Source: Myxococcales bacterium
GTDB lineage: Bacteria; Myxococcota_A; Polyangia; Polyangiales; Houyiibacteriaceae
Assembly: GCA_019637115.1 (NCBI GenBank)
Contig: JAHBWH010000023.1
Location: 1-64,000, forward strand
Length of the DNA: 64,000 nt
Direction: 5' to 3'
Within the stretch, counting starts at the first letter, position 1. Each line of letters starts with the position of its first letter. The notes under the pieces were generated by a model. That model was not told the DNA's origin. It was given only the letters and a program-made list of their open reading frames with translations, and searched no databases. The position numbers were made by a program, and so were the translations under genes. Of the stretch, positions 227-57,370 are shown in pieces.

Positions 227-474
227 CGTCACGTGAGGGCGCCGTGCGCCGAGCGTCACGTGAGGGCACCCGTGCGCGGAGCGTCACGTGAAGACACCGT
301 GCGGAGCGTCACGTGAAGACACCGTGCGGAGCGTCACGTGAGGGCACCCGTGCGCGGAGCGTCACATGAAGACACCGTGCGGAGCGTCACGTGAAGACAC
401 CGCGCGGAGCGTCACGCGAAGACACCGTGCGCGGAGCGTCACGTGGAGACACCGTGCGCGGAGCGTCACGTGAG
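227..474. repeat. Tandem array of ten 25-28 bp units with a CACGTG core
   Basis: Ten copies of a unit centred on CGTCACGTG start at 227, 254, 282, 307, 332, 360, 385, 410, 437 and 464. Spacing alternates between 25 and 27-28 bp because some units read GTGCGG and others GTGCGCGG. Two copies have a mutated core (CACATG at 360, CACGCG at 410). The array fills the space between the convergent prepilin peptidase and proB genes, and its last copy contains the proB stop codon. The core is a perfect palindrome, which is compatible with a binding site, but no regulator is implied by the context. Confidence 0.9.
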
Positions 475-1569
475 GACGAGGTCGTCTCGATGGACGATGA
501 CCCCCGAGCCTGGGCGTCCGAGCCGCGCCTCGACGTGCTCCCGCTTCGCGCCCGCGAGCCGCGCCACGTCGAGCGTCGCGTAACGCGCGAGGCCCCGAGC
601 GAGCTCGGTGCCCGCGACGGTGAGCACGCGGACCGCGTCGCCGGGCTCGAAGTCCCCTCGAACCCCGATGACGCCCGCGGGGAGCAAGCTCGCCTTGCCG
701 CTCTTGAGCGCGGCCTCTGCGCCAGCGTCCACGAGGATCTCGCCACGTGGCCTCAGCGTGTACGCGATCCAGTGTTTGCGGCTCGGCAGCCGCGCGCCCT
801 GCGGCAAGAAGAGCGTGCCGACGTCGTCCCCGGCGACGATCCGCGTGAGCGTGTCGGCGCCGTCGGGGCGTTCGACGGACGCGATGAGCACGGGCACGCC
901 GCGCAGGGTCGCGCGGCGCGCGGCCTCGACCTTGGAGGCCATCCCGCCCAGACCCACGTCGTCGGTCGGCGCGCGGAGGAAGCGGGCGACCTCGTCCACG
1001 TCGTAGACCACCGGCACCCGGACACCCTCGGCGTCGAGCACTCCGTCCACGTCGGTCATCAGCACGAGCAGGTCGGCCCCCACGAGCGTGGCGACCATCG
1101 CGGCGAGCTGGTCGTTGTCGCCGAACTTGATCTCGTCGACGGCGACGGTGTCGTTCTCGTTGATGATGGGGACCGCGCCGAGCTCGAGGAGCGCGTCGAG
1201 CGCGCGTCGTGCGTTGAGGTATCGATCGCGATCGCCGAGGTCGGCGTGCGTGAGGAGGACCTGCGCGGCGGGGAGCCCGTGCGGCTCGAAGGCGTCTTCC
1301 CAGGCCCGCACGAGGCGCGATTGGCCCGCGGCGGCCGCCGCCTGCAGCCTCGGGATGTCCTTGGGGCGTGCGTCGAGCCCGAGGCGCGCGCGGCCGAGCG
1401 CGATGGCGCCCGACGACACCAGCACGACCGAGCGCCCGTCCGCACGCAGCGCCGCGATCTCGGCCGCGAGGCGCTCGAAGCGGCCCGGCGCGACGAGCGA
1501 GCGCGAGCCGACCTTCACGACGACGCGGCGGGCTTCTGCGAGGGAGGCGCGGAGGTTGGGCTCGGTCAT
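466..1569 (-). CDS. proB: Glutamate 5-kinase
   Basis: Glutamate 5-kinase phosphorylates L-glutamate to gamma-glutamyl phosphate, the first step of proline synthesis, in the cytoplasm. The protein is 367 residues, the same length as the E. coli enzyme. The amino acid kinase domain shows the N-terminal KVGSRSLV loop (about 19-26), INENDTV (136-142) and FGDNDQL (149-155). A C-terminal PUA-like domain begins near residue 275. The frame is open further upstream, but the ATG at 1569 (MTEPNLRA) gives the family N-terminus. It is the last gene of a probable minus-strand unit with the two genes at 1763-2874, although 193 bp containing a duplicated hairpin element separate it from them. No proA is seen in the window. 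The final codons run into a tandem repeat array. Confidence 0.95.
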   Translation of the reverse strand: MTEPNLRASLAEARRVVVKVGSRSLVAPGRFERLAAEIAALRADGRSVVLVSSGAIALGRARLGLDARPKDIPRLQAAAAAGQSRLVRAWEDAFEPHGLPAAQVLLTHADLGDRDRYLNARRALDALLELGAVPIINENDTVAVDEIKFGDNDQLAAMVATLVGADLLVLMTDVDGVLDAEGVRVPVVYDVDEVARFLRAPTDDVGLGGMASKVEAARRATLRGVPVLIASVERPDGADTLTRIVAGDDVGTLFLPQGARLPSRKHWIAYTLRPRGEILVDAGAEAALKSGKASLLPAGVIGVRGDFEPGDAVRVLTVAGTELARGLARYATLDVARLAGAKREHVEARLGRPGSGVIVHRDDLVLT

Positions 1570-2940: not shown

Positions 2941-3732
2941 ATGCGACCAGGAGTCATGTCGCCCGTCCCGCGCGACCTCCGCGGCCACAGCCTCCGAGAG
3001 GTGCTCTCGGCGCTCGCGCGCGTCGACGCCGAGGGGGAGCTCTCTTGTGTCGACTCGAGCGGGCGGAGACATCGCCTGCTGCTGCGTGGCGGACGGCTCG
3101 TCGCGGTGCACGTCGAGGGGCGATTCGACCCGCTGCTGGCGCGCCTCCGCCGGAGCGGCGTCCTCGACGAAGCGGCGCACCGGAGGGCCCTCGAGGCCCT
3201 CGCGTCGAGCGAGCGGCGCGCGGGAGAGCTCGCGCGGCGCGAGGGCGCGGACCCTCGCGCGATCGACGAGGCGGTCGACCGGCAGCAGACGGCGGCGCTC
3301 GAGGCGCTCGCGAGGCGTGTCGACGGGACGTCGGCGCGCCTCGCCTTCGAGCCCCGGGTCGTCGTCGCCCGCGAGGTCGTGAGCTGGCGCCGCCCCGCCC
3401 ACCGAGCTCCCTGCGCGACCAGCGAGCCCCCGACCCGCCGAGCTCCCGGCTCGACCAGCGAGCCCCCGACCCGCCGAGCTCCCGGCTCGACCAGCGAGCC
3501 CCCGACCCACGGAGCCCCCCGCTCGACCGCTGACCCACGCCGCGCTCCCCGCGCCGCTCCGCTCGTCGAGCCGCCGCCCGCGATGGATCGCGCGACCTTC
3601 CGCCGCTTGGTGCGCGAGCTACACCCCGACCTCCACGGGCACCTCCCCGCCGACGAGCGCGCGCGTCGTGCGGCCCGCCTCGCCGAGCTCACCGCCCGTC
3701 ACGGGCGTGATCGGCGCGCACCCGGACGGTGA
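2941..3732 (+). CDS. DUF4388-like protein with a C-terminal J-domain-like segment
   Basis: About 263 residues from the ATG at 2941; an in-frame ATG at 2956 (MSPVPRD) is an equally good start. The N-terminal part (about 6-110) resembles DUF4388/PATAN-type domains found in myxobacterial signalling proteins (LREVLSALARVDAEGEL, then GGRLVAVH). A Pro/Ser/Thr linker made of a 12-residue repeat follows. The C-terminus has FRRLVRELHPDLHG with an HPD triplet at 228-230 and a following helix, as in J-domains that stimulate Hsp70. The J-like segment is short and lacks a clear helix I, so a true cochaperone role is inference. The last codons are duplicated downstream. Confidence 0.75.
   Translation: MRPGVMSPVPRDLRGHSLREVLSALARVDAEGELSCVDSSGRRHRLLLRGGRLVAVHVEGRFDPLLARLRRSGVLDEAAHRRALEALASSERRAGELARREGADPRAIDEAVDRQQTAALEALARRVDGTSARLAFEPRVVVAREVVSWRRPAHRAPCATSEPPTRRAPGSTSEPPTRRAPGSTSEPPTHGAPRSTADPRRAPRAAPLVEPPPAMDRATFRRLVRELHPDLHGHLPADERARRAARLAELTARHGRDRRAPGR
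3405..3541 (+). repeat. 36-bp tandem repeat within the DUF4388/J gene
   Basis: Units begin at 3405, 3441 and 3477, with a degenerate partial copy from 3513. Each 36-bp unit encodes 12 residues (APGSTSEPPTRR), forming a flexible linker between the two domains. The unit length keeps the frame. Confidence 0.9.
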
Positions 3733-3840
3733 GCTCGGCTGGAGCCTGAGCTCGATCGCGCGGGCCGCCTCGCCGGGCTCATGGGCGTGTTCGGCGCGCA
3801 CCCGGACGGTGCGCTCGGCCAGAGCCCAGAGCTCGATCGC
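3671..3840. repeat. Tandem duplication covering the 3' end of the DUF4388/J gene
   Basis: Bases 3671-3760, holding the last ~20 codons of the gene at 2941-3732 plus its stop and flank, are copied at 3761-3840 with a 10-bp deletion. The shared word TCGGCGCGCACCCGGACGGT occurs at 3711 and 3791. The second copy is non-coding for this gene and abuts the stop of the convergent VWA gene. Confidence 0.85.
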
Positions 3841-3851
3841 GGCCGCGTGCG

Positions 3852-5033
3852 TCAGCGACCGCGGAGCAGGTGCGCCATCGCCTCGCCGAGGCCTTCGAGC
3901 GTGAGCGGGAACATGTCGAAGACCGAGCGGACGTGCTCGATCGTGTTCCCCTCCCAGTAGCGCGGCGGCTCGGGGTTGAGCCACACGCTCTTGCGGAAGT
4001 GGTTGCGCAGCCGCATCAGCCACGTGATGCCCTCGGCGCGCTCTTCGCCGTCGTGCGAGATCGCGCCTCCCGCGCTCAGCAGCTCGTAGGGCGCCATCAG
4101 CGCGTCGCCGACGCAGATGAGCTTGTAGTGCGGGCCGCACTCGTGGAGGAGATCGTTGACGCGGATCGGGTCGGTGAAGCGCTCGGTCTCGTAGACGCGC
4201 CCATAGACGCAGTTGTGGAAGTAGTAGGTGCGCAGCTCCTTGAAGTGCGTCGACTTCTTCGCCGCGCTGAAGAGGCGCGAGCAGAGCAGCGCGAAGGGAT
4301 CCATCGAGCCGCCCACGTCCATCATCAGGATGACGCGCGTGTTCGGGCGCCGCGGCGGCCTGACGACCACCTCGAGCTCGCCCGCGTTCTTCGCCGTCGC
4401 GGCGATGGTTCCGTCGAGGTCGAGCTCCTCGTCGCCGCCGGCGCGCGCGTAGGTGCGGAGCTTGCGGAGCGCGATCTGCATCTGCCGGACGTCGAGCGTG
4501 AGGTCTTGCCGGTAGCCGGCGTAGAGGCGCGCGTCGGCGGTGCGGATCGCGCTGCGCCCGCCGCCCGGCCCTCCGACGCGGATGCCCGCGCGCTTCGCCT
4601 TGCCGCTGTGGCCGAAGGGCGAGGTGCCGGCCGTGCCGATCCATTTGTTGCCGCCGTCGTGCCGCTCCTTCTGCTCGCGCAGTCGCTCCTCGAAGAGGCG
4701 CTCGAGCTCCTCCGGGTCGAGGTTCTCCAGCAGCGCGCGCTCCTCCTCGGTGAGCTCGCCTTCGATCTGCGCGGCGTCGCGCAGCCATTGCAGCAGGTCG
4801 TCCTTCAGCTCCTTGGACGCGACCTCGACGCCGCGGAAGACCTTGAGGAACGCCTGGTCGAAGTCGTCGAGGTGGCCCTCGCGGTGGACGAAGAGCGCAC
4901 GCGCGACGTGATAGAAGCCGTCGAGGCTCTGCTGGTGCAGCCCTGCCTCCAGCGCGCGCGCGAGCTGCACGGCCTCCGTCGTGCCGACCGGCACCCCCCG
5001 CGCGCGCAGCTCGTAGAGGAAGGGCAAGAACAT
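3852..5033 (-). CDS. VWA domain protein, CoxE-like
   Basis: A 393-residue cytoplasmic protein with a von Willebrand factor A domain in its C-terminal half. The metal-ion-dependent adhesion site reads DVGGS (D239, G241, S243). The N-terminal half (MFLPFLYELRARGVPVG, then a helical acidic region around 95-125) matches the CoxE-like/VWA family that is paired with MoxR AAA ATPases. The MoxR gene ends 7 bp upstream of this start, so they form an operon. In known MoxR-VWA pairs the two act together as a chaperone that inserts cofactors or remodels enzymes; the target here is not evident. Its 3' end abuts the duplicated tail of the convergent gene. Confidence 0.9.
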   Translation of the reverse strand: MFLPFLYELRARGVPVGTTEAVQLARALEAGLHQQSLDGFYHVARALFVHREGHLDDFDQAFLKVFRGVEVASKELKDDLLQWLRDAAQIEGELTEEERALLENLDPEELERLFEERLREQKERHDGGNKWIGTAGTSPFGHSGKAKRAGIRVGGPGGGRSAIRTADARLYAGYRQDLTLDVRQMQIALRKLRTYARAGGDEELDLDGTIAATAKNAGELEVVVRPPRRPNTRVILMMDVGGSMDPFALLCSRLFSAAKKSTHFKELRTYYFHNCVYGRVYETERFTDPIRVNDLLHECGPHYKLICVGDALMAPYELLSAGGAISHDGEERAEGITWLMRLRNHFRKSVWLNPEPPRYWEGNTIEHVRSVFDMFPLTLEGLGEAMAHLLRGR

Positions 5034-9035: not shown

Positions 9036-11219
9036 ATGTACGCGCGACTCCCTTGGCTTCTCTCCTCGTTCTTACTCTTCGGCGGCGTTTTCGGCTGCGG
9101 AGACGACGACGCCCCGCCCCTCGATGGCGGCGGCGATGCCGGTCTCACTGGAATTTCGGCGCTCTTCGCGCCCGCCGCCGATCCGATCCCGTGGGGCGCG
9201 GTCCCCTTCCCGGACGACCTCTACCTGGACGCGGACGGCAGAGTCGCGCTCGCCGACTACCCCAACGAGGCGCGGAGCGAGTACGCGAGCTACGTCGAGT
9301 CCCTCCGCGAGACGCTCGGCTGGCTCGACGGCTTCGGGGTCGTCTCGCCCATCTTCTTCCCCCTCGACGCGGCGGTGGACCCAGGCTCGCTGCCCGCGAG
9401 CAGCGCCGACTCGCTCCTCCCGGAGGCGACGGCGTTCCTCCTCGATGCAGATCCCGCCTCGCCGACTGCGTTCCAGCGGATCCCGGTCGAGGCGCGCCGC
9501 GTGCCCGCCGAGGTCGCGGGGGGCGTCGAGATGGTCGCGCTGCGGCCGGCCGATGGGTACCCGCTCGCGCCTCGCGGCCGATACGCCGCCGTCCTCACGA
9601 CGCACGTCCGGGGCGCCACGGGGGAGCGGCTGCGCCCCGCGCCCGCGTTCGAGGCGCTCCGAGATGGCAGCGCGAGGCCAGAGGACGCGACCCTCGGCGA
9701 GGCGTGGGATCGATACCAGCCCGTGATCGCGAGCCTCGGGACGGCGGGCGTCGCCCGCGACGAGATCGCCGCGCTGGCGGTCTTCCGGGTGCAGAGCGTC
9801 GTCACCGACCTCGAGGACGTCCGCGCCGCGCTCTGGGCGGAGGACGCGCCCGAGGTGCGCGTGGAGGCGATCGTCTCGGGCGACGGCCTCGACGCGCTGC
9901 TCGGCGTGCCGAGCGAGCCCGCGATCGGCTTTGGCGCCCCGGGTGGGGTGCTCCACGACGCGATCGGTTGGATCGTCCAAGGGAGCTTCGACGCGCCCTG
10001 GTACCTGCACGAGCGGGCGGGCGTTCACGGCCCCTTCGAGCGCGATGGTGAACGGGTGCGCGTCAAGCGCACCGAGCGGGTGCCCTTCTCGCTCGTGTTG
10101 CCCGCGAGCGCGAGCTCGGCCAGCCCCGTCCCGGTCGTCGTCTTCCAACATGGGCTCACGGCCGATCGGAGCGACGCGCTCGGGGTGGCCCAGACCCTCT
10201 GCGCCGCGGGGTACGCGGTCGTCGCCATCGACGCGCCCTACCACGGCCTGCGCGCCCTCGGCGGCGACGTCGACACCGTGCACCGCTTCACGGGCGCCGC
10301 GGGCCCCGATGGCTTCGGCGACCGGCGCGGCGCGGCGATCATCATCGACTTCGCCGGGCTCCAGGACTTCGCCGGCGACCTGATGGACTTCCACCCGTAC
10401 TACTTCCGCGACGCGATGCGCCAAGGCTCCGCGGATCTGCTCGCCCTCGTGCGGACGCTCCGCGGCGCGGACTGGTCACTGCTCGCCGAGGAGGACGCCT
10501 CGCTCGCGGGCATCCAGCTCGCGCCCGATCGGCTCGGCTTCATCGGCTACTCGCTCGGGGGAATTCTCGGCGCGATGTTCGTCGCGGTCGAGCCCGAGGT
10601 CGGCGCGGCGGTGCTCGCGTTCACCGGGGGGTCGATCGTGCACGCGGTGTCGGAGAGCCCGGCTTTCAACCCGACGTACCTCCCCCAGCTCTTCCCGCTC
10701 GTGGGCCTCGATCCGAGCGAGATCGACTACGAGGCGCTCCACCCGAGCTTCTATCCCGGCATCGCGCTCTGGCAGACACTCTTCGACCGCGGTGACTCGA
10801 TCGCCTACGCGCGGCGGCTCCGACGAGGCGGCGCGAACCTCCTCCTCCCCATCGCGCGGCACGACGAGACCCTGCCGAACGTCAACAGCGAGGCCCTGGC
10901 CCGCGCCCTCGCGATCCCCATGGTCGGCGGGGAGCCGCTCTACGTCGGCCTCGAGCTCGCGGCGCTGCCGCTGCGCGCCAACGTGGTGGTGGAGGCGGGC
11001 ACGCGCACGCGCGGCGCGCAGCTCTGGGACCCCGCGAACCACGGCGCGCTCCTCTGGCGCACCGACAGCCGCACATACACGCCGCCGCCGCGCCCGCCCT
11101 TCCGCCGCATGGCGTCCCCGACGCCGATCGACAACCCGGTCGACGCCGTGCAAGGGCAGGTCCTGCGCTTCTTCGAGAGCTGGCGCGCGGGCACGGCCGA
11201 GATCAGCTTGGCGGATTGA
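9036..11219 (+). CDS. Alpha/beta-hydrolase (lipase-like) lipoprotein
   Basis: A 727-residue predicted lipoprotein (signal peptide with lipobox GVFGC, Cys about residue 21) followed by an Asp/Gly-rich tether. The N-terminal domain (about 45-300) resembles the N-terminal region of bacterial virulence-factor lipases. The C-terminal part is an alpha/beta-hydrolase: VVVFQHGL near 370 for the oxyanion hole, nucleophile elbow GYSLGG with S506, and a likely catalytic His in DPANHGAL near the C-terminus. It probably acts on lipids or esters at the cell surface. The start lies 115 bp from the divergent kinase start, so a shared promoter region is likely. Its stop is directly followed by a duplicated copy of the convergent gcvPA tail. 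Confidence 0.85.
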   Translation: MYARLPWLLSSFLLFGGVFGCGDDDAPPLDGGGDAGLTGISALFAPAADPIPWGAVPFPDDLYLDADGRVALADYPNEARSEYASYVESLRETLGWLDGFGVVSPIFFPLDAAVDPGSLPASSADSLLPEATAFLLDADPASPTAFQRIPVEARRVPAEVAGGVEMVALRPADGYPLAPRGRYAAVLTTHVRGATGERLRPAPAFEALRDGSARPEDATLGEAWDRYQPVIASLGTAGVARDEIAALAVFRVQSVVTDLEDVRAALWAEDAPEVRVEAIVSGDGLDALLGVPSEPAIGFGAPGGVLHDAIGWIVQGSFDAPWYLHERAGVHGPFERDGERVRVKRTERVPFSLVLPASASSASPVPVVVFQHGLTADRSDALGVAQTLCAAGYAVVAIDAPYHGLRALGGDVDTVHRFTGAAGPDGFGDRRGAAIIIDFAGLQDFAGDLMDFHPYYFRDAMRQGSADLLALVRTLRGADWSLLAEEDASLAGIQLAPDRLGFIGYSLGGILGAMFVAVEPEVGAAVLAFTGGSIVHAVSESPAFNPTYLPQLFPLVGLDPSEIDYEALHPSFYPGIALWQTLFDRGDSIAYARRLRRGGANLLLPIARHDETLPNVNSEALARALAIPMVGGEPLYVGLELAALPLRANVVVEAGTRTRGAQLWDPANHGALLWRTDSRTYTPPPRPPFRRMASPTPIDNPVDAVQGQVLRFFESWRAGTAEISLAD

Positions 11220-11220
11220 C

Positions 11221-11345
11221 GACGTGGGTGCTTCCGCGTCGTCAGGCCGCCGAGAGGGCCGCGACGAGGCGGTCGGCGTCGGCCTGCGTGTGCTTCTCCG
11301 TGACGACGAGGTCGTGTTGAGCGACGCGGGCGCTCCCGCGCGTTG
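11221..11345 (-). pseudogene. Duplicated tail of gcvPA (non-functional copy)
   Basis: This stretch repeats, with a period of about 105 bp, the last ~24 codons of gcvPA, its stop and its downstream flank. On the minus strand it encodes EKHTQADADRLVAALSAA and a stop, against EKHTKADLDRLVAALAAA in the real gene. GTCAGGCCGCCG occurs at 11241 and 11346. Both copies carry substitutions, so the event is not recent. There is no start codon or upstream coding sequence for this copy. Confidence 0.85.
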
Positions 11346-11346
11346 G

Positions 11347-12693
11347 TCAGGCCGCCGCGAGGGCCGCGACGAGGCGGTCGAGGTCGGCCTTCGTGTGCTT
11401 CTCGGTGACGGCGACGAGGAAGTCGTGGTCCCACGCTTCGCGGAACGCGCCGAGGTCCACGCCCGCGAGCAGATCCTGCGCGGCCAACGCGGCGAGCAGC
11501 GGCGCGGCGCGGCCCTCCCGGCGGCGAACGACGAACTCGTTGAAGGTCGGCGTCGCGTAGGGGATCGAGTAGGCGTCGAGCTTGCCGATCTCGGCCTTGA
11601 GGTACTCCGCGTTCGCCAGGCAATGGCGCCCGGCCCCCTCGAAGCCGCTCTTGCCGAGCATCGCGACGCGGATCGTGAACGCGAGCGCGATGAGCCCGTG
11701 GTTCGTGCAGATGTTCGACGTCGCCTTCTCGCGGCGGATGTGCTGTTCGCGGGTCGAGAGCGTGAGCACGAAGCCGCGCTGGCCGTCCTGGTCGACCGTC
11801 TGCCCGACGAGCCGACCGGGGATCTGCCGGAGGAACTGTTCCTTACAAGCGAAGAGGCCGACGCCGGGGCCGCCGAGCTGCAAGGGCACCGCGAGGGGCT
11901 GGCCCTCGCCGACGCAGATGTCGGCGCCGAGCGTGCCAGGCGCCTCGAGCAAGCTGAGCGCGTAGGGCTCGGTCGTGATCGTGACGACGAGCGCGCCCTT
12001 CGCGTGCGCGCGCGCTGCGATCGCCGCGACGTCCTCGACGCAGCCGAGGAAGGTCGGGTACCCGACGACCACGACGGCGGTGTCGTCGCGCAGCTTGGCG
12101 TCGAGGTCGGCGAGGTCCGTGACGCCCTCCGCCTCTGCGACGACCTCGAGGTCGGGTTGGTTGTCGTCCGTGCCGTTCAGGAAGGTGCGGATGGTGTCGA
12201 GGTGGTGGGGGTGCACCGCGCCGCTCACGAGCGCGTGCGTGCGCCGCGTGATCCGTCGCGCCATGAGCACCGCCTCGGCCGCGCCGCTCGCCGCGCAATA
12301 CATCGAGGCGTTCGCGACCTCTTGGCCGAAGAGCTGGCAGACGAGCGTCTGGAACTCGAAGATGGCCTGCAGCGTCCCTTGCGAGACCTCCGCCTGGTAG
12401 GGCGTGTACGCCGTGTAGAACTCGCTTCGCAGGAGGAGCTGGTCGACGGCGGGCGGGACGTGGTGGTCGTACATGCCGGCGCCGAGGAACGAGAGCGCGT
12501 TCGCCGCCGCGTTCTTCGTGGCCAGCGACTCGAGGTGTGCCATCAAGGCCGGCTCGGGGAGGGCCGGCTCGAGGTCGAGCGGGGCGGCCCGGAGGGGCGC
12601 GGGGATGGGCTCGAAGAGCGCGGCGACGGAGTCGACGCCGATGGTCTCGAGCATCGCCTGGATCTCTTGCTCGGTGTGCGGGAGGTAGCGCAT
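11347..12693 (-). CDS. gcvPA: Glycine dehydrogenase (decarboxylating) subunit 1
   Basis: The 448-residue N-terminal half of the split P-protein of the glycine cleavage system. The P-protein is PLP-dependent, decarboxylates glycine and passes the aminomethyl group to lipoyl-GcvH. Family features are MRYLPHTEQEIQAML at the start, LGAGMYDHHVPPAV, the TAYTPYQAEVSQGTLQ segment and YCAASGAAEA. In split systems the PLP-binding lysine lies on subunit 2 (GcvPB), so this subunit alone should be inactive. gcvT and gcvH precede it in the same direction. gcvPB, usually the next gene, is not here: the tail is followed by its own duplication and a convergent gene. Confidence 0.95.
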   Translation of the reverse strand: MRYLPHTEQEIQAMLETIGVDSVAALFEPIPAPLRAAPLDLEPALPEPALMAHLESLATKNAAANALSFLGAGMYDHHVPPAVDQLLLRSEFYTAYTPYQAEVSQGTLQAIFEFQTLVCQLFGQEVANASMYCAASGAAEAVLMARRITRRTHALVSGAVHPHHLDTIRTFLNGTDDNQPDLEVVAEAEGVTDLADLDAKLRDDTAVVVVGYPTFLGCVEDVAAIAARAHAKGALVVTITTEPYALSLLEAPGTLGADICVGEGQPLAVPLQLGGPGVGLFACKEQFLRQIPGRLVGQTVDQDGQRGFVLTLSTREQHIRREKATSNICTNHGLIALAFTIRVAMLGKSGFEGAGRHCLANAEYLKAEIGKLDAYSIPYATPTFNEFVVRRREGRAAPLLAALAAQDLLAGVDLGAFREAWDHDFLVAVTEKHTKADLDRLVAALAAA

Positions 12694-15688: not shown

Positions 15689-15845
15689 GGCCGTGTCGGT
15701 GTCCGCGTGTCGGTGTCCGGGTCCGTGTCCGCGTGTCCTTGTCCGGGTCCGCGGGTCCGCGTCCGGGTCCGGGTCCGGGTCCGGGTCCGGGTCCGCGTCC
15801 GGGTCCGGGGCCGGGTCCGCGTCCGGGGCCGCGCCTGGTCCGTGT
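15689..15845. repeat. GGTCCG/GTGTCC hexamer array between the TIGR01777 and scoB genes
   Basis: An intergenic array of hexamers, chiefly GTCCGG and GTGTCC/GCGTCC, with the cleanest run at 15760-15830. With its flanks it fills most of the 304-bp gap at 15642-15945. I see no other feature in that gap except a CCCTCGAGGG palindrome at 15933-15942, close to the scoB stop. Confidence 0.85.
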
Positions 15846-15945
15846 CTGCGTCGCGTCCATCGGCGGGTCCGCGCCTGGCTCCCGGTCTGGTCGCGGTGGG
15901 TCCCGGTTGCTCGTCCTCGCAGCGCGGCGGCGCCCTCGAGGGTCC

Positions 15946-18157: not shown

Positions 18158-19180
18158 TCAGAAGCGGCCGCCGAGCGTGAACGCGGCGCCTTGCGGGACG
18201 ACTGCGACCCCGGCGCCGTCGAAGCGGACGCCTTCGGGCTCGGGCAGGAGCCAGCTCACCTCGCCCTCGGTGCCTGCCTCGCGCTCGAGACGGTCGCGGA
18301 GCTCTCGGTACGCCCGCCAGCGTCGCTCGGCGTCCGAGCGCGTGAGCAGCGAGATGAGCCCGCTGAGCACCGAGATGCCCGAGCCGATGAGGATGAAATA
18401 GTCGAAAGGGTCGACGATGCGGAAGTCGTTTGGCGCGAGGTAGAGCGGGATGAACGCGAGCCCGGCCCCGATGTTGATGGTCGCGTCGAGCACCCGCGCG
18501 ATCTTGGTGCGGCGGGCCAGCCGCTCGAGCGCGGCCTCGCCGAAGTCGAGGCGCTGGCGGACTTGCTCGGGGGTGGTCATCGGCATGTGCGCGTACGCGA
18601 TCGCCGGTCCGGTCGGGTTCGGGGTCACGACGAGGTCGATGATCCCGCGGACGAGGTTCGAGCCGCCCCAGAGGACCAGGTAGCTCGCCAAGTTGCGGTT
18701 GGCCTCCCACTGCCAGATGCCGATGCCGGTCATCACGCCGCCTGCGACCAGCGAGAGGATCCCGTCGATGAGCCGGTTTCGGCCTCGGATCGCGAGCGCC
18801 TGGAGGCTGCCGTCGAGCACCCGCAGGCGCGTCGCGATGCGGCTCGGGATGCGCCCTTCGAGCGGGTCGCTGACGAAGCCACGCACGCCTGCGGGGGCGG
18901 GCGCGGGGTATTGCACGGCCGGGTCGTAGCCGGTCGGCGGGGGAGGGGGGACGGACGGGAGCTCGTCGCTGGTCGGCGCGGCCGCGTCGGCGGACGGTGT
19001 CGCCGCAGCGGGCGAAGGTCTCGCGGGCGTCGTCGTGGCAGCCGGATCCGTCGTGGTCGGCGCGGTCGGCGTCACCGCGCTCGTCGAGCCTCGGGGCCGG
19101 CTCAGCGCATCGGCGCCCTCGCCCTGGGCCCAAGCGGTCGCCGAGGTGAGGGTGAGGGCTACGAAGAGGAGCCAACGCAT
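18158..19180 (-). CDS. Exported multi-span membrane protein of unknown function
   Basis: A 340-residue protein with a clear N-terminal signal sequence (MRWLLFVALTLTSATAWAQG), then a Pro/Thr/Ala-rich linker of about 70 residues. Four hydrophobic segments follow (for example GILSLVAGGVMTGIGIW, IGAGLAFIPLYLA and YFILIGSGISVLSGLISLL). A short charged helical region (RRWRAYRELRDRLERE) lies near the C-terminus. I do not recognise the family. It converges with trmB, 21 bp away, across a GGTCGACC palindrome, and lies just downstream of the TPR gene in the same direction. Confidence 0.65.
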   Translation of the reverse strand: MRWLLFVALTLTSATAWAQGEGADALSRPRGSTSAVTPTAPTTTDPAATTTPARPSPAAATPSADAAAPTSDELPSVPPPPPTGYDPAVQYPAPAPAGVRGFVSDPLEGRIPSRIATRLRVLDGSLQALAIRGRNRLIDGILSLVAGGVMTGIGIWQWEANRNLASYLVLWGGSNLVRGIIDLVVTPNPTGPAIAYAHMPMTTPEQVRQRLDFGEAALERLARRTKIARVLDATINIGAGLAFIPLYLAPNDFRIVDPFDYFILIGSGISVLSGLISLLTRSDAERRWRAYRELRDRLEREAGTEGEVSWLLPEPEGVRFDGAGVAVVPQGAAFTLGGRF

Positions 19181-19227
19181 GTCGAAGAGTATGGGGGCAA
19201 TTCGGTGCGATGTCAGGAGCGAGTCAG

Positions 19228-19330
19228 GCGTCATCGGGCTCGCGCCTCGAGCAGGCGGAGCGCTTCTCGCGCTCGGGCGTCATCGGGCTCGCGCCTCGAG
19301 CAAGCGGAGCGCTTCTCGCGCTCGGGCGTC
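19228..19330. repeat. 49-bp tandem duplication of the TPR gene's 3' end
   Basis: A 49-bp unit starting GCGTCATCGGGCTCG occurs at 19228 and 19277, with a diverged partial third copy from 19326 inside the TPR gene. It encodes on the minus strand DDARAREALRLLEARAR, the TPR protein's C-terminus; the outer copy is past the stop codon and is not translated from that gene. Confidence 0.9.
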
Positions 19331-20278
19331 GTCGGGCGCGAGCCGGAGCGAATCACGGGCCGCCTCGCGTTGGCCGAGGGCCAGCAGCGCCAAGCCCCGC
19401 ACCGCGTAGGCGCGCTGGCGCGCGCTGCCCTCCGAGCGCGAGGCGGCCCGCGCGGCGGCGCTCGCGGCCTCCCGCAGGCGACCCGCCTCGAGGGCGGCGG
19501 CGGCGTATCGAAGGAGGTCCGCGGGCTGCCCCTGGCGGGCGACGTCCTCGAGGATCGCCAGCGCCTCACCCTCGCGTCCGTCGGCGAGGAGGGCCAGGCC
19601 GAGGTCGCGGCGCGACTCGAGGTCGCCAGGCTCGACGCGCAGGCGGATCGTCAGGAGCTGGACGGCCTCCGCGGGCCGCCCACGGGCGACGAGCAGGGCG
19701 GCGAGCTCCCGCAGCACCTCGGGGTCCTGGGGGAGCGCCCCGTGCGCTCGACGGAGGGCGAGGAGCGCCTCGTCTGGCGCGCCGCGACGCAGCGCGAGCG
19801 CGGCGACTCGACGAAGCAGCGCCACGCCCGCGCGATCTTGAGGCGCGAGGGGGAGCGCCGCCGCGGCCCGCTCACCGCAGATCGCGTCCGACCAAGCCGC
19901 GAGCCGTGACGCCTGCGCTCGCTCGTCGCTCGACACCTCGACTCGGCCTGCGAGGGCGCGGAGCCAGCGCGCGTCGTCGAGCACCTCGTCGCTCGGATGC
20001 ACGAGGCTCTCGAGGTCGTCGGGGAGGAGCCGGGCCACGAGGAAGAGCACCCGAGGGTCGGACGGCGCCCGCGCGGCGGCGCGCGCGAGGAGCGGGCGCG
20101 CCCGTCGCGGGGCGTTCGCGTCGAGCGCTCGTGTCGCGCTGGCGAGCCAGCGCTCGAGCGCCCGGTCCTGCGCGCGCGCAGGGAGCGTGGACGCGCCGAC
20201 GAGCGCGAGCGCCAAGAGGGCGTAGGGGAAGCGGCGCGACAACCGCGGCAGGGTAGTCGAGCCCCCGCTCACTCGCAC
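19280..20278 (-). CDS. Exported tetratricopeptide-repeat protein
   Basis: A 332-residue Ala/Leu/Arg-rich protein. It has a signal peptide (RRFPYALLALALVGASTLPARAQ) and then helical repeats with the TPR pattern, for example PDEALLALRRAHGALPQDPEVLRELAALL and later DGREGEALAILEDVARQG. TPR proteins in the periplasm usually scaffold complexes; the partner is unknown. The GTG at 20278 or a second GTG two codons downstream (with GGAAG at better spacing) could start it. The last 17 residues are a recently repeated segment. The 98-bp gap to the next gene is partly that duplication. Confidence 0.75.
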   Translation of the reverse strand: MRVSGGSTTLPRLSRRFPYALLALALVGASTLPARAQDRALERWLASATRALDANAPRRARPLLARAAARAPSDPRVLFLVARLLPDDLESLVHPSDEVLDDARWLRALAGRVEVSSDERAQASRLAAWSDAICGERAAAALPLAPQDRAGVALLRRVAALALRRGAPDEALLALRRAHGALPQDPEVLRELAALLVARGRPAEAVQLLTIRLRVEPGDLESRRDLGLALLADGREGEALAILEDVARQGQPADLLRYAAAALEAGRLREAASAAARAASRSEGSARQRAYAVRGLALLALGQREAARDSLRLAPDDARAREALRLLEARAR

Positions 20279-21158: not shown

Positions 21159-21159
21159 C

Positions 21160-21382
21160 GATGACCGGGGCCGAGGACCGGGGCCGAGGACCGGGGCCGA
21201 TGACCGGGACCGATGACCGGGACCGATGACCGGGACCGATGACCGGGACCGATGACCGGGACCGATGACCGGGACCGATGACCGGGACCGATGACCGGGG
21301 CCGATGACCGGGGCCGATGACCGGGTGCGAAGCCGGGTCCGAAGCCGGGTCCGAAGCCGGGTGCGAAGCCGGGTCCGGGGGC
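21160..21382. repeat. 13-bp GATGACCGGGACC array plus 12-bp GAAGCCGGGTCC array
   Basis: About thirteen 13-bp units (GATGACCGGGACC and GAGGACCGGGGCC variants) run from 21160 to 21328, followed by four 12-bp GAAGCCGGGTCC/GTGC units to about 21382. It fills the 240-bp gap between the convergent HTH and lon genes. No terminator-like stem is apparent apart from the repeats. Confidence 0.93.
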
Positions 21383-40650: not shown

Positions 40651-41045
<395 letters not shown>

Positions 41046-44461: not shown

Positions 44462-44715
44462 GGCCCAGGGTCCGGGGCGGGATCCGGGTCGGGGTCCGGG
44501 TCGGGGTCCGGGTCGGGGTCCGGGTCGGGGTCCGGGTCGGGGCCGGGTCGGGGTCCGGGTCGGGGTCCGGGTCCGGGTCCGGGTCCGGGTCCGGGTCCGG
44601 GTCCGGGGTCCGGGTCGGGGTCCGGGTCCGGGTCGGGTCGGGTCGGGTCGGGGTCGGGTCGGGGGTCCGGGTCGGGGTCCGGTCGGGGCCAGCGCCGGGT
44701 CGGGGTCGGGGCCGG
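44462..44715. repeat. GGGGTCCGGGTC 12-bp / GGTCCG 6-bp array upstream of scpA
   Basis: About twenty units of 12- and 6-bp repeats (GGGGTCCGGGTC, GGGTCC, GGTCGG) fill most of the 504-bp gap between the divergent coiled-coil and scpA genes. Of the remainder, 44716-44892 holds the scpA leader; I see no terminator or promoter that I would name. Confidence 0.9.
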
Positions 44716-44892: not shown

Positions 44893-46634
44893 GTGGCCGA
44901 CGACGCCAAGCCGAAGACCTTTTCCGACGCGGACCCGCCGCCCGACGCGCCGGTCCCGATCGATCCGAACTTCCGGATCCAGCTGCCCGGCTTCGAGGGG
45001 CCGCTCGACCTGCTGCTCTTCTTGATCCGCAAGCACGAGCTCGACGTGCTCGACCTCCCGGTCGCGTTCGTGACCGAGAAGTACCTCGAGTACCTCACGC
45101 TGATGGAGCAGCTGAACCTCGACGTCGCGAGCGAGTACCTCGTGATGGCGGCGACGCTGGCGCACATCAAGAGCAAGAGCCTGCTCCCGAAGGCGCCGGA
45201 CGACCCGGACGACGGCGACGACGAGGACGAGCTCGACCCTCGCGCGGAGCTGATCCGCCGCCTGCTCGAGTACCAGAAGTACAAGAAGGCCGCCGAGCAG
45301 CTCGGGGCACGGGGCGTCGCCGGGCGCGACGTCTTCCCTCGTGGGATTCCGGGGCCAAAGGCCGAGGGCGACGCGCCGCTGGCCGAGCTCAGCGTCTTCA
45401 AGCTCATCGACGCGTTCAGCAAGCTCGTCAAGAAGCGGCAGGGGCAGATCTCGTTCGAGGTCGACGCCGAGCAGGTGACGATCCAGGAGCGCATCGGCCA
45501 GATCGTCGAGAGCTTGAAGCGCCACGAGCGCATCTCGTTCGTCACGCTCTTCGAGGGGTACGCGACGACCTATGACCTCGTGGTGACGTTCTTGGCGCTG
45601 CTCGAGATGGCGAAGATGCGGATGATCCGCATCTACCAGCCGAGCCCCGAGGAGAGCATCTACCTCGAGTATCGCGTGCTGGACGAGTCGGCCGTGGGGC
45701 CGGCGTACGGGGACGTCGCGCTCCAGGTCACTTCGGACGAGCACGAGCCGGTGGACTTCGACCGTCCGCCGCCGCTCCCTGAGCTCAGCGACGAGGAAGA
45801 GGGGGACGAGGAGGACTTCGACGTCGACGAGTGGGCGGCGAAGGCCGACGCGCGCGCGGCGGGGGTCGAGGCTGTCGAGGGGCTCGACCTCGACGCCGAG
45901 GGCGACGACGAGGTCGAGGTCGAGGGGGACGCTTCGGGGTGGGCGGATGCGCTCGCGGCGATTGATGATGTCGAGCTCGCGGAGGAGCTGGAGGAGCTCG
46001 AGGGGTTCGAGTCGGAGTCGGACGAGACGGGGGGTGAGACGGAGTTTGGGGCGGAGGCTGGGTTCGAGACGGGGTCCGAGACCGGGTCCGAGTCCGAGGC
46101 TGGGTTCGAGACCGAGACCGAGACCGAGACCGAGTCAGGGTCCGAGTCCGGGTCCGGGTCCGAGACCGGGTCCGAGTCCGAGACCGGGTCGGAGACCGGG
46201 TCCGAGTCCGAGACCGGGTCCGAGTCCGGGTCCGTGTCCGAGACCGGGTCCGGGTCCGGGGCCGAGTCCGAGACCGAGTCCGGGTCCGAGTCCGAGTCCG
46301 GGTCCGGGTCCGGGACCGAGACCGGGACCGAGACTGAGACTGAGACTGAGACTGAGACTGAGACTGAGACTGAGACTGAGACTGAGACTGAGACTGAGAC
46401 TGAGACTGAGACTGAGACTGAGACCGGGTCCGAGACTGAGACCGGGGCCGAGACTGAGACCGGGTCCGAGACAGCGGCAGGGACCGAGACCGAGGCCGGG
46501 GCTGGGGCCGAGGCGGGGGCGGGGGCCGGGAGTGAGCGCGGGCTCGGGGCGGAACGCTCGGAGGGGGAGGGCGCGGACGTCGAAGCTGACGAGGCGCTTG
46601 AAATTACCGACGATCCGGAGCAAGACGGGGCGCC

Positions 46635-48881: not shown

Positions 48882-48937
48882 CGCTCACCGTCGTCGACCC
48901 AGACGCGGACCGGACGCGGTCGACGGAAGCCGTCGAG

Positions 48938-49130
48938 CCCGAGTTCCGAGCCCGAGTTCCGAGCCCGAGTTCCGAGCCCGAGTTCCGAGCCCGAGTTCGA
49001 GCCCGAGTTCCGAGCCCGAGTTCTGAGCCCGAGTCCGAGCCCGAGTCCGTGCCCGGGGCCGAGGCCGCGCCCGAGTCCGTGCCCGAGTCCGAGTCCGAGC
49101 CCGAGTCCATGCCCGAGTCCATGCCCGAGT
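48938..49130. repeat. 13-bp GAGCCCGAGTTCC array between glyQ and glyS
   Basis: Exact 13-bp units run at about 48938-48990, then degenerate 12-bp and 6-bp GAGTCCGAGCCC/GCCC units to about 49130. It fills most of the 395-bp glyQ-glyS gap, where I see no other gene. In many genomes glyQ and glyS are nearly adjacent. Confidence 0.9.
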
Positions 49131-49276
49131 CGTCGACCGAAACGGTCACGGATGCTGTCGACGGACCGAGCCTCGTTGCGGACGGCGCCGCGAACTGCCT
49201 CCGCGGCCGAGCATCCGCGACCCCTCGTGTACTCGCGCGTTGAGCGTGCGAAGCCGCGATGGTAGGACGCACGCAC

Positions 49277-54062: not shown

Positions 54063-54275
54063 CACGGCCCGGACCCGGTCTCGGACCCGGTCTCGGACCC
54101 GGTCTCGGACCCGGTCTCGGACCCGGTCTCGGACCCGGTCTCGGTCTCAGTCTCGGTCTCAGTCTCGGACCCGGTCTCGGTCTCGGACCCGGTCTCGGTC
54201 TCGGACCCGGTCTCGGTCTCGGACCCGGTCTCGGTCTCGGACCCGGTCTCGGTCTCGGACCCGGTCTCGGTCGCG
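54063..54275. repeat. GGTCTCGGACCC 12-bp / 18-bp array downstream of ppdK
   Basis: A dense array of 12-bp (GGTCTCGGACCC) and 18-bp (with an extra GGTCTC) units fills the 248-bp gap between the convergent ppdK and rhomboid genes. A related word occurs at 36608-36700. Confidence 0.92.
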
Positions 54276-55156: not shown

Positions 55157-57370
55157 CTATTGCAGAGGTCGCGAGCGCGTGCGCAGCCTGGTGAGCACGC
55201 CGTCCAGCGCCTCGTAGACGATGAGCTCTCGGTCGCCGTCGCGGACCGACGCGACCGCGCGCGCGCCGACGCGCTCGGTCGAGTCCACGCCCGTTACGCT
55301 CTCGTCGTCGATGAGCCGCCAGTGCAAGAGATCGTCGCTGACGAAGAGCGCGACCTGCCAGCGCGTCCCGCGGCGGGTGTCGACGCGCACGCGGTAGGTC
55401 GCGCGCTCGACGGTGAGCCGCGGGACGCCGACGGCGTCGACGTGCAGGCCCTCGGTCGGGAGGTCGCTCCACCGCTCGAAGCCGAGCCCGTCGTGGGACG
55501 CGTACGCGGTGGCGCGACCCGCGACGTCGGTCGCGACGAGCACCCACCGGCCCACCGGGCCGACCCACGTCACGGCGAGCCCGACGAGCGGCGTCCGGGG
55601 CGTCGGCGTGAGCCGGAGCGTCTCCACGTCGCCCGCGGGGGCGAGCGCGTCCTCGTCGATCGCGACCCGCACGGGCCGCGGGCCGCCCTCCTCGTGACGC
55701 AGCGCGTGCAGCCAGAAGCCCGCGTCGCCCGCGCGCCGAGTGAGCGAGGGGCTCGTGAAGGGGTGGTCGCCCGCGAGGAGCGGGGTGTCGTCGAAGCCGC
55801 CCGGGGCGCGGGGGACGAAGCGGTCGCGGCGCCCGGGGTCCGGGGCCTTCGCCGCGAAGAGCGCGCCCTCGTCGGCGAAGACGAGCGTGGGGACGCCCTC
55901 GGCGTCGAGCGCGAGCGCAGGATCGCGCGGGTCGAACGCCTGCCAGATCTCGGGGCCGCGCTCGAAGCGCAAGGTGGTCGGCGCGCTCCACGCGCTCGGC
56001 ATGTCGCAGCGCGCGGCGCCCGTCTCGAGCGACGCGATGCGCGCGCCCTGGGAGTCGGTCGCGCCTGGGTTGCGGCTGTGCCCGTAAAGGACGACGTGCG
56101 CGCGCGCCGCGGGCGCGAAGCGCGCACCTTCGAGCAGGATCTCGTCCGCGCGCGCGACCGTGAGCGCGCCCGTCGGCGCGAGCTCGAGCGCCCACGGGCC
56201 TTCGGAGGCGTCCCATCGCGCGACGACGACACCAGCGACGACGAGCCGCACCTCGCTCCGCGCGCCGGAGAGCACGAGCGCGGCGAGCGCGTCGACGTGG
56301 TCGAAGGCGCCGAGGGTGGCCTGGGTGGTCACGCCGAACGCGGCGGACTCGAAGCAGCCGTCACAGTCGACTGGGAGCTCGAAGCGGGCGGCGATCCGCA
56401 CGCGCTCGTGGCGCAGGTCGTAGACCTCTTGGAAGAGGACGCCGCTGTCGTAGTGGGTGTCCCCGCCGAGCGCGAGCGTGGGCCCGACCACGAAGGGCGA
56501 GGGGGCGCCGAAGAGCGTGCTCGCGCCGAGGCAGCTCTCGAGGTCCACGCAGCCCTCGAGCTGCTCGGCGGAGAGACGTGGGCCGGGTGCGTAGTCGCCG
56601 CAGCACGCAGCGCGGCCCGGGCAGCAGCTCGCCAGCGCGCCGCAGCGCGGGTCGCTGCAGTCGGCGTCGGGGTCGTAGGGCGTGTCGTAGCAGGCGGAGA
56701 GGTCGCGGCCGCCATCACCGCGGGCCTCGCCTGAGTCGGTGTAGTTCGCGCTGTCGTCGAGGGGTAGCGGCGCCGGCGCGCTCGGCTGCGGTGGCGCGGC
56801 GTCCTGGCCGGGTACGGTGCCGGCGTCGACGTCGGCGATCGGGCCGGTGTCTGCGTCGCGGCCTTCGGTGGAGTCGTCGAGCGCCATGCAGCCGGTCGCG
56901 AGCACGAGCGCGACGAGCGCGAGCGTCGCGCCCAGCGGTTTGCGTGCGCTGCTGTGCGTGGGGCGTCCGGAGTCGGGACCGTGTTCGCGTCCGTGTCCAT
57001 GTCGTCCGGGACCGCGTCCGCGTCCGTGTCCGTGTCCGGGACCGCGTCCGTGTCCGTGTCCGTGTCCGTGTCCGTGTCCGGGACCGGGACCGGGACCGTG
57101 TCCGTGTCCGGGACCGTGTCCGGGACCGCGTCCGTGTCCGGGACCGGGACCGTGTCCGTGTCCGGGACCGCGTCCGTGTCCGGGACCGTGTCCGGGACCG
57201 CGTCCGTGTCCGGGACCGTGTCCGGGACCGGGACCGTGTCCGTGTCCGGGACCGTGTCCGGGACCGTGTCCGGGAGCGCGTCCGGGACCGCGTCCGTGTC
57301 CGGGACCGGGGCGAACCACCCGTTGGTGGGTCGGCGCGGCGCCGAGGTGTGACGCTTCAGGTGCGCTCAC
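55157..57370 (-). CDS. Large lipoprotein C, with a repeat-rich N-terminal region
   Basis: The mature part (about 600 residues) is a paralog of the next gene: a Cys-rich segment (CYDTPYDPDADC, RAACCGDY), then beta-rich domains with VLYGHSRNPGATDSQ and FERGPEIWQAFD that look like a jelly-roll and a beta-propeller. The hydrophobic stretch LGATLALVALVLATGC is a lipobox-like signal, but it lies about 150 residues after the GTG at 57370, behind Gly/His/Pro repeats from a hexamer array. That GTG overlaps the upstream stop (GTGA). Either translation starts nearer the signal peptide, or the array interrupts it; I could not find an in-frame start there. Function unknown. Confidence 0.65.
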   Translation of the reverse strand: MSAPEASHLGAAPTHQRVVRPGPGHGRGPGRAPGHGPGHGPGHGHGPGPGHGPGHGRGPGHGPGHGRGPGHGHGPGPGHGRGPGHGPGHGHGPGPGPGHGHGHGHGHGRGPGHGHGRGRGPGRHGHGREHGPDSGRPTHSSARKPLGATLALVALVLATGCMALDDSTEGRDADTGPIADVDAGTVPGQDAAPPQPSAPAPLPLDDSANYTDSGEARGDGGRDLSACYDTPYDPDADCSDPRCGALASCCPGRAACCGDYAPGPRLSAEQLEGCVDLESCLGASTLFGAPSPFVVGPTLALGGDTHYDSGVLFQEVYDLRHERVRIAARFELPVDCDGCFESAAFGVTTQATLGAFDHVDALAALVLSGARSEVRLVVAGVVVARWDASEGPWALELAPTGALTVARADEILLEGARFAPAARAHVVLYGHSRNPGATDSQGARIASLETGAARCDMPSAWSAPTTLRFERGPEIWQAFDPRDPALALDAEGVPTLVFADEGALFAAKAPDPGRRDRFVPRAPGGFDDTPLLAGDHPFTSPSLTRRAGDAGFWLHALRHEEGGPRPVRVAIDEDALAPAGDVETLRLTPTPRTPLVGLAVTWVGPVGRWVLVATDVAGRATAYASHDGLGFERWSDLPTEGLHVDAVGVPRLTVERATYRVRVDTRRGTRWQVALFVSDDLLHWRLIDDESVTGVDSTERVGARAVASVRDGDRELIVYEALDGVLTRLRTRSRPLQ
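56990..57316 (-). repeat. GTGTCCGGGACC 12-bp / GTGTCC 6-bp array before the lipoprotein C signal peptide
   Basis: A long array of GTGTCC, GGGACC, GCGTCC and GTGTCCGGGACC units. In the lipoprotein C frame it encodes Gly-His-Pro-Arg repeats. It separates a start codon overlapping the upstream gene from the signal peptide. Confidence 0.93.

Follow-up and report, generated by a model that had tools for sequence, protein, structure and literature searches.

The closest described events are bacterial de novo tandem duplications, which Yi et al. (2014; PMC4169377) ascribe to replication slippage between direct repeats of 3 to 8 nt, each duplication beginning with the upstream repeat and stopping just before the downstream one. 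Slippage of this kind is an accepted route to such duplications. The locus described here, at the 3′ end of a DUF4388-like gene of a Myxococcales bacterium, shares with these events two head-to-tail copies and perhaps a short repeat at the junction. However, the published duplications were obtained under drug selection and lay within a gene whose frame had to be kept, whereas the unit at our locus is diverged, spans a stop codon, and appears neutral. In Borg elements, tandem repeats can begin within the ends of ORFs (PMC9879509), but those units are described there as perfect and recently formed, in contrast to the diverged copies here. Template switching (PMC8794818) can create stems of the type represented by a perfect 13-bp inverted repeat in our first copy; at the DUF4388 locus, however, no ancestral sequence displays such an event. 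None of the titles and abstract openings surveyed announced a test of stop- versus start-containing duplications in bacteria, which is no proof that such a test is absent from the literature.

By pairwise alignment, two head-to-tail copies occupy positions 3666-3841 of the window, the 64,000-nt stretch of DNA that was analyzed (Table 1). The two align over 96 columns with a 10-nt and a 1-nt gap, at 79% identity if gaps are included, and their alignment score is 104, compared with a mean of 18.8 (sd 3.2, maximum 38) for 2000 dinucleotide-shuffled pairs. They abut directly, as a slippage-type short tandem duplication would have it. Of the unit, 67 nt are coding, made up of 21 sense codons, the stop, and one further nucleotide, and the noncoding part is the beginning of the spacer toward the convergent VWA gene, so placed that 23 nt separate the stop from copy 2 and 10 nt separate copy 2 from the VWA gene. 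An earlier note on this DNA had claimed a tandem copy of the last ∼20 codons and flank with a 10-bp deletion in one copy, and the alignment confirms both.

Table 1. Features of the duplicated gene end and its surroundings (window coordinates)
Feature	Position	Strand	Description and basis
DUF4388-like gene	2956-3732	+	Start set by our codon-based caller; ORF opens at 2443
Copy 1	3666-3755	+	Final 21 codons of DUF4388 gene with its stop, then 23 nt of spacer; alignment, last codons of same-genus orthologue match
Left arm of perfect 13-bp inverted repeat	3682-3694	+	In copy 1; broken in copy 2
10 nt of copy 1 missing in copy 2	3689-3698	+	Lost between 3778 and 3779; TCA direct repeats at bounds
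Right arm of perfect 13-bp inverted repeat	3727-3739	+	In copy 1
DUF4388 gene stop codon	3730-3732	+	Inside copy 1
Copy 2	3756-3841	+	Decayed tandem copy, 10 nt missing, in-frame stop TGA changed to TGC; alignment, sequence
VWA (CoxE-like) gene	3852-5033	-	Convergent to DUF4388-like gene; PF05762, E 2.7e-11

The missing 10 nt open with TCA and are followed in copy 1 by another TCA, so that the loss looks like a slippage deletion between 3-bp repeats. The codons for AELTAR are common to copy 1 and the same-genus orthologue (G001), and their DNA includes the 10 nt; since G001 retains the matching codons, it was copy 2 that suffered the deletion. The copy pair is absent from the list returned by TRF, probably because of the alignment gap.

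The name of the host gene derives from a PF14332 match (E 0.00058, 20.3 bits) that falls under the Pfam cut-off of 25. The Pfam search found no J domain in the gene, as the second half of the previous label, DUF4388/J, would suggest; its tail does contain an HPD triplet, a motif typical of J domains, that is conserved in three orthologues. The orthologues in G001 and in a member of the same family (G006), 53 and 54% identical, respectively, terminate near the position that matches the gene end in copy 1. Both genomes carry the gene end once, and their spacers show no clear alignment with ours (the downstream score of 20 for G006 was reached by 7% of controls). The G006 protein ends in HGL-stop, which suggested an ancestral frameshift (a 1-nt loss, with the protein extended by RDRRAPGR before duplication); in view of the downstream similarity just given, we do not claim it. 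Of the 57 genomes searched, 49, the host genome among them, contain a match to the VWA neighbor with an E value of at most 0.001. As a separate observation, the DUF4388 gene has internal 36-bp repeats (3393-3528), which extend a linker by 12-residue repeats; the two relatives have a shorter linker.

The account that we consider probable is that of an ordinary short tandem duplication that persisted because the gene was left intact; spacer arrays abound in this genome, and start-side copies would be selected out. One event, most likely slippage during replication or a template switch between two short stretches that resemble each other (TCGTGCGGCC at the upstream and TCGCGGCC at the downstream edge), would have copied ∼90 bp running from the 3′ end of the DUF4388 gene into the spacer. 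The copies overlap at their junction by 5 bp (TCGCG) with an imperfect longer similarity, a figure from diverged copies and without a chance control; an overlap of at least 3 bp, likewise without a chance control, occurs in 16 of 34 two-copy arrays of the genome sample described below. The gene still ends in copy 1 with, it appears, nothing lost, and the duplication could therefore persist. Copy 2, presumably free of selection, would since have decayed through substitutions, loss of its stop, and the 10-bp slippage deletion. Elsewhere, duplications that cover a start or a promoter would be removed by selection, which we propose as the reason for the many events at gene ends and the few at starts.

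We screened for tandem duplications containing a stop codon in 101 sequences of 1,501,253 bp including the window (1.50 of the 8.88 Mb genome). The sample is nonrandom: it takes in every seventh contig, then neighboring contigs and two pieces of contig C24, up to 20 kb each. Its 1111 genes were called by our codon-based caller from sequence only, and wrong starts would blur the 5′ count. Self-BLAST gave 138 tandem arrays, of which 61 were short-period and 77 were long-unit. Among the latter, 29 lay in coding sequence and 48 touched spacer (a stop alone was included in 18, a start alone in 3, both in 2, and neither in 25); leaving out the window, stop-only and start-only arrays numbered 15 and 3. 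The self-BLAST screen missed the array at 19227-19344 and probably other units below 50 bp, and TRF was added as a second detector. For units of at least 25 bp, TRF counted 51 arrays in coding sequence only, 45 in spacer only, 13 with a stop, 4 with a start, and 2 with both, the comparison of 13 stop-only with 4 start-only giving P 0.026 (12 vs. 4 and P 0.043 without the window). Shorter units by TRF covered 13 stops and 10 starts. The short-period arrays from self-BLAST avoid both gene ends: 46 touch spacer, with a stop in 2 (18.1 expected) and a start in 6 (19.8 expected). Tolerance of the 3′ end is, therefore, a property of long-unit duplications and not of every kind of array.

The 3′/5′ asymmetry is real, and the broadest null traces it to too few starts rather than to too many stops. 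When the long-unit arrays were placed at random so that they touched spacer, 20 stops were seen vs. 20.0 expected, and 5 starts were seen vs. 21.6 expected, a value so low in 0 of 300 trials. The same null without the window gave 17 vs. 17.9 for stops and 5 vs. 19.9 for starts. With the window kept and start-bearing placements barred as well, stops stood at 18 vs. 23.5 expected. A single-unit null, in which the unit was placed at random on a map with the spare copies removed, yielded, for units without a start, stops in 18 of 43 arrays against an expected 31% (P 0.14; 15 of 39 against 32% and P 0.39 without the window), together with a depletion of starts (3 of 21, P 0.0006; 3 of 18, P 0.003 without the window). 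Plain random placement over the whole sample, coding sequence included, gave 18 stop-only arrays vs. 7.8 expected and 3 start-only vs. 8.5 expected, a result that also mirrors the arrays’ general avoidance of coding sequence. An apparent positional preference of mutations can, in other words, arise mostly from survival.

A mechanism that favors 3′ ends, with replication or transcription stalling or terminator hairpins raising the rate of duplication, is the best-surviving alternative, although we judge it unlikely. It is what the earlier note had put forward, suggesting stalling near convergent genes as an example and proposing the screen. The screen, on the part of the genome sampled, bore out the predicted asymmetry, 18 stop-only arrays to 3 start-only, and stops do outnumber starts; the proposed cause and an excess of stops under the broadest null did not emerge. 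Some further results favor such a mechanism. In arrays whose copies are at least 85% alike, a stop was present in 13 of 23 (P 0.005; 0.009 in a second test), or in 11 of 20 without the window (P 0.023), and two-copy arrays contained a stop in 14 of 30 against 31% expected (P 0.08); both are subsets among four sets tried. Nulls limited to footprints of at most 65, 50, and 40% coding sequence also gave more stops than expected (19 vs. 13.2, 18 vs. 10.3, and 18 vs. 8.5, respectively). We think that these footprint nulls are biased, because the spare copy counts as spacer and a two-copy footprint that spans a stop is, therefore, less than half coding. Part of the 3′ excess in the strict nulls and in the high-identity subset may be geometry, as the spare copy becomes spacer, combined with promoter avoidance. 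A weak mechanistic 3′ bias is possible. That duplications begin more often at 3′ ends in this lineage, with selection at 5′ ends accounting for just part of the asymmetry and the younger, high-identity arrays showing the raw bias, seems to us rather doubtful. If such a residual bias is true, duplication would be tied to the ends of transcription units.

Against a 3′-favoring mechanism stand the nonsignificant excess under uniform unit placement given above and the distribution of arrays over classes of spacer. Nine stop-bearing arrays fall on 348 convergent stops and 10 on 500 co-directional stops (P 0.64; an array may cover two stops), so that stalling near convergent genes, as the note had it, is not supported: convergent stops are no richer than co-directional ones. 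Of the 11 arrays within convergent spacers, 9 reach a stop where 6.9 are expected (P 0.23). Co-directional spacers have 12 of 23 arrays touching an end (14.3 expected, P 0.39), and of the 9 arrays in divergent spacers, a single one reaches a start (4.2 expected, P 0.04). A tendency in the other direction, toward 3′ ends, is that arrays confined to co-directional spacers are closer to the stop upstream than to the start downstream, although without significance (n = 11, P 0.37; short-period arrays n = 18, P 0.25).

Folding leads to the same result. The hairpin at the DUF4388 gene stop in copy 1 is strong, matched by 2.75% of 400 control ends, and it is a point in favor of terminator hairpins as promoters of duplication. 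The raw folding energies of duplicated ends are slightly below those of controls (P 0.035), but the difference is gone after correction for composition: relative to dinucleotide shuffles, duplicated 3′ ends have a mean z of -0.49 (n = 23) vs. -0.37 for controls (n = 200; P 0.61). Given the absence of a fold difference and of a convergent excess, stalling at convergent genes or at hairpins is unsupported as a general cause.

We also considered that the duplication might be a functional element kept by selection, such as a doubled bidirectional terminator between the two convergent genes, which we regard as highly improbable. Consistent with such a role, the perfect inverted repeat surrounds the stop, repeats of at least 13 bp occur at just 11 of the 1054 gene ends in the sample, and copy 1 folds well on both strands (z of -2.8 and -3.3). 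However, the stem is gone from copy 2, whose z values are -1.2 and -0.5 and for which 32 and 55 of 200 shuffles (on its two strands) fold equally well. Moreover, no T run follows the 13-bp stem as read from the sequence, so that the copy 1 stem does not have the form of an intrinsic terminator, and in 28 of the 29 relatives’ loci examined there is no TRF array at the end of the VWA gene. A terminator or other RNA element was, therefore, rejected: copy 1 folds well, copy 2 does not, and duplicated 3′ ends are not special once composition is removed.

Least probable of all, and rejected, is membership of the unit in a dispersed mobile or repeat family. Among the 40 of 437 candidates that were scored, nine weaker matches (E 3e-5 to 0.009) occur elsewhere in the genome, including one within the window, and three of them begin at query base 83-85. 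However, the nine extend over 25-103 bp at 71-92% identity, with the window itself at 72% GC, and carry no composition control; the best aligns with 81 of 176 bp at 73% identity, and the three that begin together are just 25-34 bp long. No second full-length copy, as a dispersed repeat or miniature transposon would have, was among those scored.

The preferred reading, a duplication of ordinary origin that survived, sets this locus among many. This lineage carries a high load of spacer tandem arrays. By the same self-BLAST screen, 94 arrays touch spacer in 1.50 Mb here vs. 1 in 0.40 Mb from one contig of G009, which belongs to the same family and has a genome of 9.3 Mb, and TRF counts were 255 vs. 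4. Noncoding sequence makes up 16.2% here and 8.5% of the G009 sample, and scarcer spacers thus explain about a factor of two of the difference in arrays. In a genome with so high a load, new spacer sequence arises by duplication. The hexanucleotide pattern CCGNGN has 3034 matches in the genome (overlapping ones counted) vs. 92 for a reversed control pattern; elsewhere, it has 185 in G001, the other genome of the genus, 39 in G009, and 2765 in G035, which is from another family. Loss of repair genes was rejected as the reason for the many arrays, as those that were searched for are present, with matches over the cut-off for MutS1, RecJ, and SbcD and both N- and C-terminal MutL matches. The MutL match (G000, contig C15, 3587-5860) consists of two halves, separated by ∼960 bp, within a single open frame of 1082 codons; in the other 11 genomes, the best MutL matches over the cut-off lie in frames of 533-816 codons.

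Two more repeats in the window had been cited as like events at 3′ ends, and both do exist there. A 101-bp duplication at 11216-11414 covers the end of gcvPA, the GDC-P gene at 11347-12693 (-), and begins at the stop of the convergent gene at 9036-11219. A 49-bp unit repeated 2.4 times at 19227-19344 lies at the 3′ end of the TPR gene 19280-20242 (-), but it extends as far as the start called for the following gene, 18158-19234 (-), and so spans a 3′ and a 5′ end.

Other arrays were noted in passing. A 25/78-bp tandem array at 221-477 begins at the 3′ end of the gene 466-1569 (-), which has AA_kinase and PUA domains and is presumably proB-like. Arrays with units of 6, 12, 13, or 18 bp, several of them of the CCGNGN type, occur at 15691-15846, 21159-21377, 40829-41038, 44468-44715, 46023-46531, 48934-49131, 54070-54272, and 56974-57308. 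In G006 (locus L012), the sole case among the 29 relatives’ loci, a different, perfect 14-bp array of 4.1 copies lies 3-59 nt past the matched end of the VWA orthologue.
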